Virus record (IMG/VR): IMGVR_UViG_3300039191_000025
Coordinates: 1 to 31,138 of that record
Length of the DNA stretch: 31,138 nt
Strand: one strand, 5' to 3'
DNA from: a virus
The notes under the pieces are model-generated. The model was not told the origin of the DNA. It did not search any database and saw only the letters and a program-made list of their open reading frames with translations. Made by a program: the position numbers and the translations under genes. Shown here piece by piece: positions 5,971 to 31,138 of this stretch (positions are counted from its first letter, which is position 1; each line of letters starts with the position of its first letter).

Positions 5971-6010
5971 CCCCGTTAGCCTTTCTTGGTGCTAACGGGG
6001 TTTCCTTTTA
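5971..6010 (+). terminator. Rho-independent terminator T1
   Basis: A perfect 10-bp stem (CCCCGTTAGC with GCTAACGGGG) and 10-base loop is followed by TTTCCTTTT. It closes the head operon. The stem sequence is nearly the same as in the terminators at 6559 and 7900. Confidence 0.93.
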
Positions 6011-6014
6011 ACTA

Positions 6015-6028
6015 GAACAAGTGTTCGA
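6015..6028 (+). promoter_or_regulatory. Palindromic operator, copy 1 (SOS-box-like)
   Basis: GAACAAGTGTTCGA here is identical to 6185-6198. The arms GAAC and GTTC around four bases fit the actinobacterial LexA box pattern TCGAAC-N4-GTTCGA with one arm slightly degraded. A TTGACA sequence occurs about ten bases downstream. Binding by host LexA or by a phage regulator is inferred. Confidence 0.6.
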
Positions 6029-6184
6029 TAACACCTTTTGACAACCAAAGACAAACAGCCACACAGACACCCCTAGCAGCCTCGCTAACGGCTTTGACCC
6101 TACTCTTAGCCACAACCACGCAGCCATCACAGCGAACGTCCGACCTGAGCGAAATGGTGGGTCTTGCCCAGTGAACACGCACCC

Positions 6185-6198
6185 GAACAAGTGTTCGA
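6185..6198 (+). promoter_or_regulatory. Palindromic operator, copy 2 (SOS-box-like)
   Basis: With the preceding base this reads CGAACAAGTGTTCGA, an 11-of-12 match to the TCGAAC-N4-GTTCGA pattern. It lies 170 bases from copy 1 and about 60 bases upstream of the promoter for the gene at 6306. A third copy of the 13-base core lies on the other strand at 29493-29506. Confidence 0.65.
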
Positions 6199-6205
6199 AT
6201 AAAAC

Positions 6206-6235
6206 ACTAGTTGTTATCTAATTGTGATAACTAGT
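6206..6235 (+). repeat. Interrupted dyad GTTATC/GATAAC
   Basis: GTTATC at 6213-6218 pairs with GATAAC at 6226-6231, and ACTA at 6206-6209 pairs with TAGT at 6232-6235 across a three-base bulge. T-rich sequence follows. The left part GTTGTTATCTAAT is the same 13 bases seen in the promoter near 22078, so this may be an operator half-site and not only a hairpin. Confidence 0.5.
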
Positions 6236-6247
6236 TTATTGAAAGAC

Positions 6248-6276
6248 TTGTGTTGTGGCTTGTTGTCGACTAATGT
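6248..6276 (+). promoter_or_regulatory. Candidate promoter for the gene at 6306
   Basis: TTGTGT at 6248-6253 and TAATGT at 6271-6276 have a 17-base spacer. The transcript would have a leader of about 20 bases containing the GAAGGG ribosome-binding sequence. Since T1 lies upstream and T2 downstream, the gene at 6306 needs its own promoter, which supports this call. Confidence 0.45.
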
Positions 6277-6305: not shown

Positions 6306-6536
6306 ATGAACGAAATGAACAAGCTAGTAACTGCAGCAGAATACGCAAAAGAGATTGCAGGTAGCAGAGTAATTTTCAACAGCCAAACCTCTGAAGAATA
6401 TACCAACCCTGCATTTGTTTCCTTACACTTTGAAAATGGCTTTAGAGTTGCTTACCAAATCAAAAACGACATTACGACAATTACTCACTGGATGTTCAAA
6501 ATTCACGTCGAGTTTGACGGTCGGCACATCGTTTAG
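6306..6536 (+). CDS. Unknown protein in a private transcription unit
   Basis: A 76-residue protein of unknown family, starting at ATG with GAAGGG about seven bases upstream. It has a helical N-terminus, then alternating hydrophobic segments suggesting a small beta-rich domain; there is no membrane segment or signal peptide. It lies between the prohead protease and the major capsid gene, is enclosed by terminators T1 and T2, and has palindromic operators upstream. That insulation is unusual inside a head operon and suggests separate regulation from the structural genes. Confidence 0.7.
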   Translation: MNEMNKLVTAAEYAKEIAGSRVIFNSQTSEEYTNPAFVSLHFENGFRVAYQIKNDITTITHWMFKIHVEFDGRHIV

Positions 6537-6558: not shown

Positions 6559-6592
6559 CCCCGTTACCGTACATCTTGGTAACGGGGTTTCA
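6559..6592 (+). terminator. Rho-independent terminator T2
   Basis: CCCCGTTACC pairs perfectly with GGTAACGGGG around a nine-base loop, followed by TTTC. It ends the transcript of the gene at 6306 and differs from T1 by one stem base pair and the loop. Confidence 0.9.
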
Positions 6593-6706
6593 TTGTGCGC
6601 ACCTGTTGTAAACTATTTGTATCGGATAAGAGTTAGCTCTGCCGACCTTGCTGTTGAGCGTTAACGCCACTGCACCTAAATGCAAATAACCTAACAAGGA
6701 GACTAA
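6593..6706 (+). promoter_or_regulatory. Leader and promoter region of the major capsid gene
   Basis: Because T2 ends just upstream, the capsid gene must be transcribed from here. The likely promoter lies around 6603-6632 (CTGTTG, 17 bases, ATAAGA), though the match is weak. The leader contains the perfect palindrome GCGTTAACGC and a good AAGGAG ribosome-binding sequence at 6695-6700. Confidence 0.4.
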
Positions 6707-8020: not shown

Positions 8021-8065
8021 CGTTACCTAGTGTTTCTAAGTTAGACTAGAGCTTGGAGGTTTACA

Positions 8066-17174: not shown

Positions 17175-17742
17175 GCGACTAGCCGATTGGCGCTTGCCCT
17201 ATGACGCTAAATACATAACCGCTCACTACGGTGAGATGAGTGCTTATCGCAGAGCGCACGGCATGCAAAGTCATTCGGGAACGGACTGGGCAAGGCCACG
17301 TGGAACCCGGATTCCGGCAATAGCAAAAGGAACTATTCGGTTGATACAATTTTCTGAAGTCCTTGGGTGGGTAATTGTACAAACCGCAATGGATAAGGAC
17401 GGTGTTATCTGGTGGCTCGGTTATTGCCACATGGACAGCAAGCCGGGGTATTCGGTCGGACAGAAGCTACGCAAGAGTCAGACGGTTGGACTATTAGGGA
17501 ACAGCGGTCAATCCTCTGGGCCTCACGTCCACGTGACAGCCTCTAGGACACTCAAGGGTGTATTCGGTGTCACGGCCGACAAGGTAGACGCTTACAAGCT
17601 AATTCTTGCCAATGTAAAGAAGCCCGTAAAAAGACCAGCGCCTGCGGTGGTTGCTCCTGTAGCAAAGAAAAAGACAGCTCCTAAGCCCGTACCCGGTGGG
17701 AATAAGCGCGGCAGGTTCTGGCACTTGTTCGGTGGTAAGTAA
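17167..17742 (+). CDS. Endolysin, M23 peptidase
   Basis: A 191-residue peptidoglycan endopeptidase. The zinc ligands are visible: His36 and Asp40 in HSGTDW, and His122 in the HVH motif (residues 120-122), with His88 in the conserved WLGYCHMD segment. GLLGNSGQSSGPHVH is the classical LytM signature. Residues 145-191 form a Lys/Pro/Ala-rich tail ending in basic residues, in place of a known wall-binding domain. It starts at GTG inside the upstream gene and ends at the start of the next membrane protein. Confidence 0.92.
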   Translation: MAKRLADWRLPYDAKYITAHYGEMSAYRRAHGMQSHSGTDWARPRGTRIPAIAKGTIRLIQFSEVLGWVIVQTAMDKDGVIWWLGYCHMDSKPGYSVGQKLRKSQTVGLLGNSGQSSGPHVHVTASRTLKGVFGVTADKVDAYKLILANVKKPVKRPAPAVVAPVAKKKTAPKPVPGGNKRGRFWHLFGGK

Positions 17743-18050: not shown

Positions 18051-18234
18051 CAAAAAATTTATCAACAGCGCAGGCGAACGAGCAGTCAAGACTTTTGCTC
18101 AGGCAGGGCTTGCTTTTCTTGGAGGCGGAACCGTTGGGTTGTTCTCAGTGGATTGGGTCGGGTTCTTTAGTATTGCAGCAGGCTCAGCCTTGTTGTCACT
18201 ACTGACATCCATTGTCACTAAGAAGCAGCTATAA
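18037..18234 (+). CDS. Holin, r1t-like
   Basis: A 65-residue protein with the pattern of phage r1t-type holins: SAGERAVKTFAQAGLAFLGGG, a VDW turn, then ALLSLLTSIV. Two membrane helices are likely. It would permeabilise the membrane to release the endolysin. The start may be ATG 18037 or ATG 18043; both are inside the upstream gene and neither has a clear Shine-Dalgarno sequence, so coupling is likely. Its stop overlaps the stop of the convergent whiB-like gene. Confidence 0.85.
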   Translation: MEMFSKKFINSAGERAVKTFAQAGLAFLGGGTVGLFSVDWVGFFSIAAGSALLSLLTSIVTKKQL

Positions 18235-18522
18235 CAACTTAATTGTTCTGGGCGCTTGTGCCTTATTGCTTTTGCGCAGGCGCTGTCGCTGTCGAGAGTT
18301 CATGCCTCCCCAAATACCGTGCGCCTCGTTGTTGACCAGCGCAAACTGCAAGCATAGCTCCCGAACAGGGCAAGCATTACAAAGCTGGATAGCGGGTTGC
18401 ATTTGTGGGTTCGGTGTTCCACCTTCAGGAAACCAAGCGTCCGGGTCGGTTTGTTGACAGGCCGTTGAGCCGTGTTCGCGTATGCCGTCTGCTAGTGCAG
18501 TGAGTGCCTGTTCTGAGTTCAT
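18229..18522 (-). CDS. WhiB-family regulator 1
   Basis: A 97-residue WhiB-like protein, an iron-sulfur regulator that binds the host primary sigma factor. Four cysteines (Cys22, Cys48, Cys51, Cys57) have the C-n-C-x2-C-x5-C spacing needed for a 4Fe-4S cluster; the G-I-W-G-G turn is at residues 69-73 and a basic tail follows. ATG 18522 is preferred over TTG 18528 because a promoter places the transcript start at it. The phage TM4 WhiB protein blocks host whiB2 and causes superinfection exclusion; a similar role here is inference. Confidence 0.92.
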   Translation of the reverse strand: MNSEQALTALADGIREHGSTACQQTDPDAWFPEGGTPNPQMQPAIQLCNACPVRELCLQFALVNNEAHGIWGGMNSRQRQRLRKSNKAQAPRTIKLL

Positions 18523-18529
18523 AAGCAAA

Positions 18530-18558
18530 AGGTAACCGCTCTAATAGAGGGTTGTCAA
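18530..18558 (-). promoter_or_regulatory. Leftward leaderless promoter for WhiB 1
   Basis: On the minus strand TTGACA (18558-18553) and TTACCT (18535-18530) are separated by 17 bases. The ATG at 18522 lies seven bases after the -10 box, so the transcript should be leaderless or nearly so. Confidence 0.65.
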
Positions 18559-18569
18559 ATTGGCTCTAG

Positions 18570-18827
18570 CTAGCGGTCTTGTGGCGAAGTTGCGCCCCAA
18601 ATTCCATAGCGTTGATGCGTCTCCATAGCGTACGTAAAACATTCTTCGACCATTGGACACGCCTTACAAATTGCCTTGGCGGTCTTAGTGGCGACAGCCC
18701 TAGCCTCCGGTTCGCTTATGTCTTCAGGAAAGAAAACGTTCGGCAGTCTCTGACACTCAGGGTCGTTCTGGTTGACCAGTTTCAAAAAAACCATATATGG
18801 GCTTGATAAGTTTCCGTGTTTGACCAT
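18570..18827 (-). CDS. WhiB-family regulator 2
   Basis: An 85-residue WhiB-like protein with Cys25, Cys54, Cys57 and Cys63 in the cluster-binding pattern and a GIWGAT turn at residues 75-80. It is shorter than WhiB 1 and ends right after the turn (SPQDR), so it lacks a basic DNA-binding tail. It probably contacts the sigma factor only. It lies upstream of WhiB 1 on the same strand, yet WhiB 1 has its own promoter. A -10-like TAGGCT (18839-18834 on the minus strand) is six bases from the ATG. Confidence 0.88.
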   Translation of the reverse strand: MVKHGNLSSPYMVFLKLVNQNDPECQRLPNVFFPEDISEPEARAVATKTAKAICKACPMVEECFTYAMETHQRYGIWGATSPQDR

Positions 18828-26026: not shown

Positions 26027-26169
26027 TGACCAAGGACACCCGACAATTCTTGCTAACGGTCACGCTCGCCACCTTGGGAGCTTGGCTGCTAGTCACCGAG
26101 ACACACCGAAAGCTAATCGCTTGGGGTTGGGATTACGTCCTCGCCTTCATAACTTACCTAACCCACTGA
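26026..26169 (+). CDS. Single-pass membrane protein
   Basis: A 47-residue protein whose ATG overlaps the preceding TAA (TAATG). A single hydrophobic helix (FLLTVTLATLGAWLLV) follows a short charged N-terminus; the C-terminal half is rich in Trp, Tyr and Leu and may be partly membrane-embedded. No family recognised. The coupling and codon pattern support a real gene. Confidence 0.6.
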   Translation: MTKDTRQFLLTVTLATLGAWLLVTETHRKLIAWGWDYVLAFITYLTH

Positions 26170-26180
26170 AAGGGGTTGAA

Positions 26181-26378
26181 ATGGCATCAAGCATAAAAGA
26201 CACAAGGGTCACAATCACCGAGGCAGCTACCGAACTCGGACTACACCCAAACACAATCCGCAACTACATCCGCGAAGGACGCATAAGCATTACCCGGTTA
26301 GGCCCTCGTCTAATCCGCATTGACCGAAGCGAACTTTACAAGATTGCAGGAGGCGACCCAGAATGGAGAAAGCGCTAA
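26181..26378 (+). CDS. Excisionase-family helix-turn-helix protein
   Basis: A 65-residue DNA-binding protein starting at ATG 26181 after GGGGTTG. The segment VTITEAATELGLHPNTIRNYIREGRISITRLGPRLIRIDRSELYKI is the MerR/excisionase-type winged helix. No integrase is seen, so it is more likely a small transcription factor than a directionality factor. It could act on the dyad promoters nearby. Confidence 0.85.
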   Translation: MASSIKDTRVTITEAATELGLHPNTIRNYIREGRISITRLGPRLIRIDRSELYKIAGGDPEWRKR

Positions 26379-29022: not shown

Positions 29023-30168
29023 ATGTTAGAAGGACTAGAACCAGCGGCAACAATCAAGGCTCCTAAAGACTTCCGTCCCGGCGTTGTCTTCGACGGCAAC
29101 GAAGGAACCGCGACAACCGAGGGCGTGGCAGAGTTGCCTAACTTCGACGACTTCTTAGCAGAGCGTGGCTATCCAAGTGACATTTACGAGATTGTCGGAA
29201 CACCGCGAACATCACAATGGCAACAGCGTGAAGGCGGCGCTTGGCTAACGTCATACCGGTTCAGTTTTCGGAAGAAGGTTGCCGATTTTGACCTGCCAGC
29301 ACTGTTTGCTATGGCAAAAAAGAGCAAATCGGCAACTAGTCGCGTAAAAACCAAGGAGAAGGCCCTTATTGTCTGCCCTGCTGATTTTCAAGTCGGTAAA
29401 GCGGGAGGCAGTAGAGGTGGAACGCCTGAGCTAATCGAACGTGTGTTTGAGAGCTATGACCGGATAGAAGAACAGGTCAAGGCGGGTAAGTACGAACACT
29501 TGTTCGTGTTGGACATGGGAGATATCATCGAGAGCCTGTCTTCAGCCGCAAACCATCAACAAAATCAAAGCAACGACCTCAGCCCCATGCAGCAGGTGGA
29601 CGCTGCAGCATCATTAGTATTTGAGCTGGTCAAGCGCCTAAGCAAGTACGCTCCTATTACTTATGGGTCAGTTGCATCTAATCATTGTCAGAACCGCTTC
29701 ATGGGTCAGGCAGTAGGCAAGCCGGGGCTAGACGATTGGGGCATTGTAATTGCGCAACAGCTCCGAAGGCTCACTACCGAGATAGGCATGGACGTGACCT
29801 ACCTAATCCCTCAGCCACTAGACGAGGGCTTCGCTTTTCAATACGGCATCAACACTATTGGCGTGGTTCACGGACATCAAGCCTCACGGCCTGCAGGAGT
29901 CAAGAAGTGGTGGTCGGATAGCTCATTCGGGAATCAGTGGGTTGCGCCTTGTGACGTGCTAATCTCGGCTCATTTTCACCATCTCGCGCTAGAGGAACTC
30001 GGACAAAGACACGACAACTTAGGTTCCAAGTTTTGGGTTCAGTGTTCCACAATGGATGCGTCTAGCGATTGGTTCAGGCGCAAGGCCGGAGTCGATAGCA
30101 CGAGCGGAATCCTAACGATTGAGCTGGATAAGAACATCCCCTTCAGCGGGTCAGTGACTAAGCACTAA
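29023..30168 (+). CDS. Metallophosphoesterase / DNA-processing phosphatase
   Basis: A 381-residue protein with the calcineurin-like fold in residues 110-360. Motifs are CPADFQVGK, DMGDIIE (GD), SVASNHCQN (GNH-like), VVHGHQ and SAHFHH; together these give the two-metal site. Such phage enzymes act as exonucleases or nucleotide phosphatases; the first is suggested by the neighbouring recombination-type genes. A palindrome shared with the 6.0-6.2 kb regulatory interval lies inside the gene at 29492-29507. Confidence 0.85.
   Translation: MLEGLEPAATIKAPKDFRPGVVFDGNEGTATTEGVAELPNFDDFLAERGYPSDIYEIVGTPRTSQWQQREGGAWLTSYRFSFRKKVADFDLPALFAMAKKSKSATSRVKTKEKALIVCPADFQVGKAGGSRGGTPELIERVFESYDRIEEQVKAGKYEHLFVLDMGDIIESLSSAANHQQNQSNDLSPMQQVDAAASLVFELVKRLSKYAPITYGSVASNHCQNRFMGQAVGKPGLDDWGIVIAQQLRRLTTEIGMDVTYLIPQPLDEGFAFQYGINTIGVVHGHQASRPAGVKKWWSDSSFGNQWVAPCDVLISAHFHHLALEELGQRHDNLGSKFWVQCSTMDASSDWFRRKAGVDSTSGILTIELDKNIPFSGSVTKH
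29492..29507 (-). promoter_or_regulatory. Palindromic operator, copy 3, inside the phosphoesterase gene
   Basis: ACGAACACTTGTTCGT is a perfect 16-base palindrome in its arms. On the minus strand it contains GAACAAGTGTTCG, the same 13 bases as at 6015 and 6185, including the asymmetric AAGT centre. It encodes part of YEHLFVLD, so it could be partly chance, but the exact match to the other two sites argues otherwise. Confidence 0.55.
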
Positions 30169-30584: not shown

Positions 30585-30760
30585 TGAGTCCGAATTACGA
30601 TTACAAGTGTCCGGGCTGTCGTCTTGTTCAAAGCGCCACTCACCCTATTAGCCAAGACCCTAACCTGACCTGCGACCAGTGCGCTGTATCCCTTGTCCGT
30701 ATCCCAAGCGTTCTAGCTGTTACCTTCAATGCCAAAGACTTCTACTCGACGAGTCCCTAA
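30584..30760 (+). CDS. FmdB-type zinc-ribbon protein, copy 2
   Basis: A 58-residue protein homologous to copy 1 (94-267), with Cys9/Cys12 and Cys30/Cys33 pairs and the same AKDFYSTSP end. Its N-terminal half differs at many positions, including the extra Ser after the start. The TAA overlaps the ATG of HNH copy 2. The third-base changes in the shared tail show that both copies have been kept under protein-level constraint. Confidence 0.8.
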   Translation: MSPNYDYKCPGCRLVQSATHPISQDPNLTCDQCAVSLVRIPSVLAVTFNAKDFYSTSP

Positions 30761-31092
30761 TGGGTAGGTGGCCCCAGCCCTGCGCTGTTTGCGGAACTCT
30801 GACAAAAGGGGCAAATAGGTGCGACCCCCATGAGCGGGAGTATAGGCAGCGGCGGGCTAACGCGGCGGACGCTCGTGTTGATACTCGCAAGAAATCTCAG
30901 CTATACAACTACGCTTATCGGCAAGAAGCAAAAAGGGTAAAGGAAAATGCCACTCACTGCCACTTGTGCAAGGAACCCTTCTTACTAGGGCAGCCCATAG
31001 AAGCCGACCACCTTCAGGCAGGAGTCTCGGACAGTCCGTTAGCAGCAGCGCATAGACTCTGCAACCAACGTAGAGGAGACAAGCCACTATGA
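30760..31092 (+). CDS. HNH endonuclease, copy 2
   Basis: A 110-residue HNH nuclease with the same metal-binding and catalytic residues as copy 1 (PCAVC, RCDPH, CHLC, EADH, H-x2-CNQRRG). About 13 differences separate it from copy 1, mostly outside the catalytic core. It ends with the TGA overlapping the ATG of the junction gene. An in-frame ATG at 30679 lies inside the zinc-ribbon gene and is rejected. Confidence 0.85.
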   Translation: MGRWPQPCAVCGTLTKGANRCDPHEREYRQRRANAADARVDTRKKSQLYNYAYRQEAKRVKENATHCHLCKEPFLLGQPIEADHLQAGVSDSPLAAAHRLCNQRRGDKPL

Positions 31093-31138
31093 GCCTAGAA
31101 GTGTGCTACTGTCCTTACCCATGGGGCACAACATGGGG
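31089..31138 (+). CDS. 5' part of the small junction protein
   Basis: ATG at 31089 overlaps the HNH copy 2 stop (ATGA), and the frame is open to the end of the window: 16 codons with Cys, Trp, Tyr and Pro (CYCPYPWGTTW). It continues in frame into base 1 and stops at 92-94. See the first entry. Confidence 0.55.
   Translation, partial: MSLEVCYCPYPWGTTW

Follow-up and report, generated by a model that had tools for sequence, protein, structure and literature searches.

Some bacteriophages are controlled by the LexA protein of their host via simple promoter boxes. A different arrangement is found in the stoperators of mycobacteriophage L5 and its kind, many asymmetric 13-bp sites scattered over the genome and bound by the phage repressor. 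Short, non-coding DNAs with palindromic ends and variable location are also familiar, in the form of the PATE and MITE elements. The Gram-positive/actinobacterial LexA consensus has been given as CGAACRnRYGTTYC (PMC2248561), and the listed SOS boxes of S. venezuelae lie between -199 and +91 relative to the start codon (PMC9380542). At promoter P1 of phage GIL01, two boxes (dinBox1 and dinBox1b) are adjacent to one another, lie downstream of the P1 start and are non-cooperative (PMC4551915).

Here we describe a conserved non-coding cassette of 183 bp (positions 6015–6197, plus strand) in a stretch of viral DNA of 31,138 nucleotides, the window, which is a whole IMG/VR virus record (IMGVR_UViG_3300039191_000025). 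A profile of the cassette matches about 28 contigs of IMG/VR, and each of its ends is a LexA-type box. With the actinobacterial/Gram-positive LexA operator (TCGAAC-N4-GTTCGA, CGAACRNRYGTTYC) these boxes share their half-sites, the purine/pyrimidine inner positions and the free centre, but here there are two putative boxes, separated by ~16 or 17 helical turns, with a conserved non-coding core between them, and they are in a phage. Like GIL01 P1, the cassette is a phage DNA with two host-LexA sites, in this case predicted from sequence; unlike those of GIL01, they are 170–179 bp apart and neither lies over a promoter. The sites of the cassette and the L5-type stoperators are both intergenic, operator-like and placed after gene ends, where they could halt elongation. 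The cassette, however, consists of two symmetric sites in one unit, and in the four other bearing records checked, GAACRNNYGTTC is confined to the cassette's own pair of boxes.

The window encodes terminase, portal, prohead protease, HK97-type capsid, tape measure and endolysin families, which place its phage among the tailed phages. Two copies of an HNH endonuclease cassette, 79% identical in DNA, lie at the ends of the record (97–621 and 30590–31116). The nearest isolate by capsid (56% identity) is the Pontimonas salivibrio phage phiPsal1 (31,069 bp, circular), described without sign of integration (PMC6106888), and the phages bearing the cassette are related to this phage of Pontimonas (Microbacteriaceae). 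Relatives were first collected via the capsid protein, and a profile of the interval then added more distant members. When the right end of the core was scanned as a pattern over all viral contigs, 15 and 28 contigs were returned; the exact core pattern had no match in 85k bacterial/archaeal genomes, and a search of bacterial/archaeal genome contigs with the capsid protein (MCP) found no prophage.

A sequence-only reading of the window had reported three exact copies of a 13-base palindrome, GAACAAGTGTTCG. Two of these are where it placed them, at 6015–6027 and 6185–6197 (both plus strand), whilst the third is at 29493–29505 (minus strand), not 29494–29506. That such matches exceed chance is borne out by the presence of three GAACRNNYGTTC sites where 0.11 would be expected from the size and composition of the window, and chance is thus a poor account of the box pair. 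The same reading was mistaken in grouping the third copy with the pair: it lies inside an exonuclease gene whose homologues have the same codons without the palindrome, and is probably incidental. The partial match proposed near 17722 is ordinary, being a three-mismatch match (17718–17730, minus strand) and one of 14 matches against 9.7 expected. That account missed that the 170-bp box spacing is conserved across phages, as is the DNA that the boxes enclose.

The left box (GAACAAGTGTTC, 6015–6026) is found at the left end of all members whose contig includes that end, and the right box (the same sequence at 6185–6196) has the conserved neighbours CGAACA..TGTTCGAa. Rightwards from the left box, on the plus strand, come a weakly conserved stretch in which subfamilies differ by ~9 bp in length, a first copy of the direct repeat GGnTTTTGCCC (GGCTTTGACCC, 6090–6100), the conserved blocks AGCCACAACCAC (6108–6119) and ACCTGAGCGA (6143–6152), a second repeat copy (GGGTCTTGCCC, 6159–6169) and 15 bp leading to the right box. 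The two repeat copies, seen by self-alignment of the profile, are 69 bp apart, and the blocks were read from the family alignment. The interior is conserved beyond what a plain spacer would need. Members down to 45% identity there retain box spacings of 169, 170, 178 or 179 bp in the family list (exactly 170 bp in close relatives, 169 in L045). These values are close to 16 or 17 turns of the helix, and the clustering at helical phase has p ~0.04 when calculated on distinct length classes, with few independent length changes among the members. An internal sigma-70 promoter was considered and rejected, as TTGCCC is conserved but by eye is followed by no -10 element at 16–18 bp. A Rho-type C-rich region was likewise rejected, the bias of C over G failing in some members.

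The resemblance of the sites to the LexA box, proposed at the outset, holds for the half-sites: across the family the boxes retain GAACR..YGTTC, as in the LexA consensus, and keep GAACRNNYGTTC, which is the Gram-positive LexA consensus. It does not extend to the bases at the centre, which are not fixed. The further proposal, that the binding protein may read more than LexA does, fails because the four central bases vary freely between phages (AAGT, ACTT, ATCT, AGGT, ATTC, AACC, GTTT and others), with AG, CT, TC, GG, AC, AA, TT, GA, TG, CG and CC among the innermost pairs. The full SOS-box form (GAAC-N4-GTTC with inner R/Y and a free centre) is present in the 20-row alignment, where the R/Y agreement is partly ascertained, some members having been found by patterns that demanded R/Y. 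In 29 relatives without the cassette there are three such sites in all, about the chance level. From the consensus we infer that the protein at the boxes is host LexA. GAACANNYGTTC also occurs in pairs or arrays in many unrelated phages, where it surrounds other non-coding intervals, some of which contain internal repeats (in IMG/VR, for example, L130/L179, L132/L164 and L143/L171).

It is possible, but unlikely, that the palindromes are instead the target of some other repressor, from phage or host, whose half-site resembles that of LexA. The window does encode a MerR/excisionase-like HTH protein (26082–26378). The close match of the boxes to the LexA consensus argues against this explanation, however, as do the failure to find a LexA-type domain in the window and the HTH_3 matches in related records, which fall below the cut-off.

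A sequence-only model of the cassette, run over 50 whole records, found 16 bearers, each with a single copy. The same run gave a weak reverse-strand echo of the cassette's own place in G034 and weak partial matches in G003 and G021; phiPsal1 and several long relatives, including the 32.5-kb G016, which has the same gene order, had none. PhiPsal1 was rejected as a carrier since it has no profile match, despite LexA-type sites at 8041, 8213 and 8246. These three sites, within 217 bp (8041–8257 of L205, the phiPsal1 record), are inside coding DNA, around the ends at which glycosyltransferase and methyltransferase genes converge. Weak profile matches were also seen in the window at 716–766 (E 0.037), intergenic and upstream of the genes for primase and small terminase, and in L222, again intergenic and before the small terminase gene. 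The former may be a decayed relative or composition; a third weak match, in L223, appears coding.

If the boxes were regulatory, the sequence-only reading expected related phages to have them conserved in the same positions. The pair is indeed conserved, but at the same place in only part of the family; cassettes occupy five or more genomic sites in related phages. In type A (the window, L004–L008, L045 and L116) the cassette comes after the prohead-protease operon, and what follows it is an accessory gene or the capsid gene. Type B is found at the lysis/RecE junction among tandem WhiB genes, with the cassette either behind the last WhiB gene (L199, L106, L225) or between WhiB1 and WhiB2, where the left box overlaps the WhiB1 stop codon (L226, L123, L091, L109); in L131 it is at the contig end. 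In type C it follows exonuclease/HNH genes and precedes accessory genes (L133, L227), in type D it is 37 bp before endolysin (L135) and in type E it is within a run of accessory genes (L163, L141). In the contexts read, the cassette is behind the end of a same-strand gene, the upstream gene in L135 being uncertain. In L199, L106 and L225 it lies between convergent genes, with no gene to its right. The lysis/RecE junction has two to three tandem WhiB-like genes in the window (18229–18827, minus strand), L199 (1113–2114) and L225, the assignment of window 18570–18827 being backed by Pfam. tRNA-like genes with odd anticodon loops were noted in L199 (1432–1503, minus strand, among the WhiB genes) and L228 (11615–11686, minus strand).

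In the window the cassette precedes a 76 amino acid accessory ORF (6306–6536, plus strand), which was previously described as insulated and does have terminator-like hairpins on both sides. One, with a T-run, is directly before the left box (5971–6009, plus strand; seen in the sequence, its loop being above the limit of the hairpin scanner) and the other is 3′ of the ORF (6559–6590, plus strand; also seen in the sequence). No family was found for the ORF, a short-pattern search with its protein found no relatives, and it is replaced or missing in close relatives: the same position holds a GNAT-like protein in L005 and no gene in L004. Further right, the leader of the capsid gene (6617–6685) contains two tandem hairpins kept across 20 related phages including phiPsal1, with five of 13 pairs changed on both sides and pairing preserved; the region may be a structured 5′ leader.

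Most right boxes of types A, C and E have to their right a GTTAYC-type period-11 repeat, then a promoter-like pair and lastly an accessory gene, whose start is ~110–165 bp from the box. The window's repeat (GTTATCTAATTGTGATAA, 6213–6230, plus strand) is MtrA-like, in that its period of 11 and its half-site fit an RTAACAAT-type 8-bp direct repeat with a 3-bp linker. Its sequence is similar to that of the MtrA site of C. glutamicum, located upstream of -35 in cases where MtrA is an activator (PMC3353115). GTTATCTAATTGTGATAA is the sole match in the window, and one match with up to two mismatches is the chance expectation; the repeat recurs at the same place in many relatives, and some members are without it. 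Types B and D lack the repeat, and in L102, L123 and L091 TTGACA-17-TAGCCT stands in its place (by eye). The promoter-like TTGTGT-17-TAATGT of the window's accessory gene (6248–6276, plus strand) was likewise read by eye and is a candidate only, a scan with consensus promoters having given no match there. Since the right box is far upstream of the accessory promoter and at a variable distance, simple promoter occlusion is unlikely. At the HNH-terminase locus (locus C), L133 has the full cassette, whereas in G024 the core is missing and two boxes 41 bp apart precede a promoter of the shared style and a first gene homologous to that of L133; in G020 a single box precedes the same style of promoter. 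These short forms link the boxes with the accessory operon and show the core to be a separable part.

The variable location invites comparison with a non-autonomous mobile element, MITE- or PATE-like, with ends palindromic by chance and a transposase supplied from elsewhere. We consider this improbable. The five or more sites, the many relatives without a cassette and the finding that sites A and B are filled or empty among phages whose RecE is ~91–94% identical (that of type A and type B phages to the window's, with the B site empty in A-type records) would all suit such an element, and the cassette is likewise short, non-coding and palindrome-ended. It is present in one copy per genome, however, and comparison of filled and empty B junctions revealed no target duplication, only ragged edges with differences that exceed the cassette itself. 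Such observations, like the existence of short forms made up of boxes alone, speak against a transposable element of the ordinary kind. In addition, orientation behind the upstream gene is constant in the contexts read, the ends vary as a protein operator would, and neither tyrosine recombinase nor resolvase domains (PF00589/PF00239) were found in 10 records including phiPsal1, a search in which controls were positive and some records incomplete; this also provides nothing to suggest an attachment site.

A cis site for replication, packaging, partition or recombination, needed once per genome, could account for the single, position-tolerant copy, the direct repeats, the phased palindromes and the A/T-rich right flank. 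It is nevertheless decidedly improbable: absence of the cassette from related phages of the same gene order, including the complete circular phiPsal1 and G016, speaks against an essential role in replication or packaging, no integrase or resolvase was found in the 10 records searched, and in most contexts the terminase is distant. That a small structured RNA or a gene for a short peptide lies between the palindromes is very improbable, for the minus-strand frame of ~60 amino acids that is open in the window and its nearest relatives is stopped in distant members (L123, L102, L133 and L118, read from the alignment), which upholds the original description of the interval as gene-free, and there is neither a consensus fold with covarying pairs on either strand nor an Rfam match.

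Our preferred explanation, tentative and given somewhat less than an even chance, is that 6015–6197 is a cis-acting control cassette at an operon boundary, gated by host LexA. The two ends would be host LexA operators on roughly the same helix face, and the middle would contain further protein-binding sites, the direct repeat GGnTTTTGCCC among them. In an undamaged host, LexA dimers on both boxes would act jointly to keep the boundary closed, either excluding upstream transcription from the accessory promoter at the right or restraining that promoter. DNA damage would destroy LexA and so release the accessory gene. A barrier or a loop at the boundary fits the position of the cassette behind gene ends and its convergent setting in L199. 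Points that count against the preferred explanation are the lack of a gene on the right side in L199, L106 and L225, and an interior whose conservation exceeds that of a plain spacer. A more elaborate version, rather doubtful as it stands, has two host LexA dimers ~16 or 17 turns apart looping the DNA around the core with a second protein, to form a damage-gated operon-boundary switch that relocates, is passed among phages and is placed before accessory genes.

The repeat in the core hints at an additional DNA-binding protein, and ends bound by host LexA may let the phage couple its accessory genes to host stress. If host-LexA gating is correct, a movable, conserved non-coding cassette with paired LexA-type boxes would represent a layout unlike that of simple promoter boxes, and would make accessory genes of the phage dependent on damage to the host in aquatic actinobacteria, a group in which the regulation of phages has received little study.
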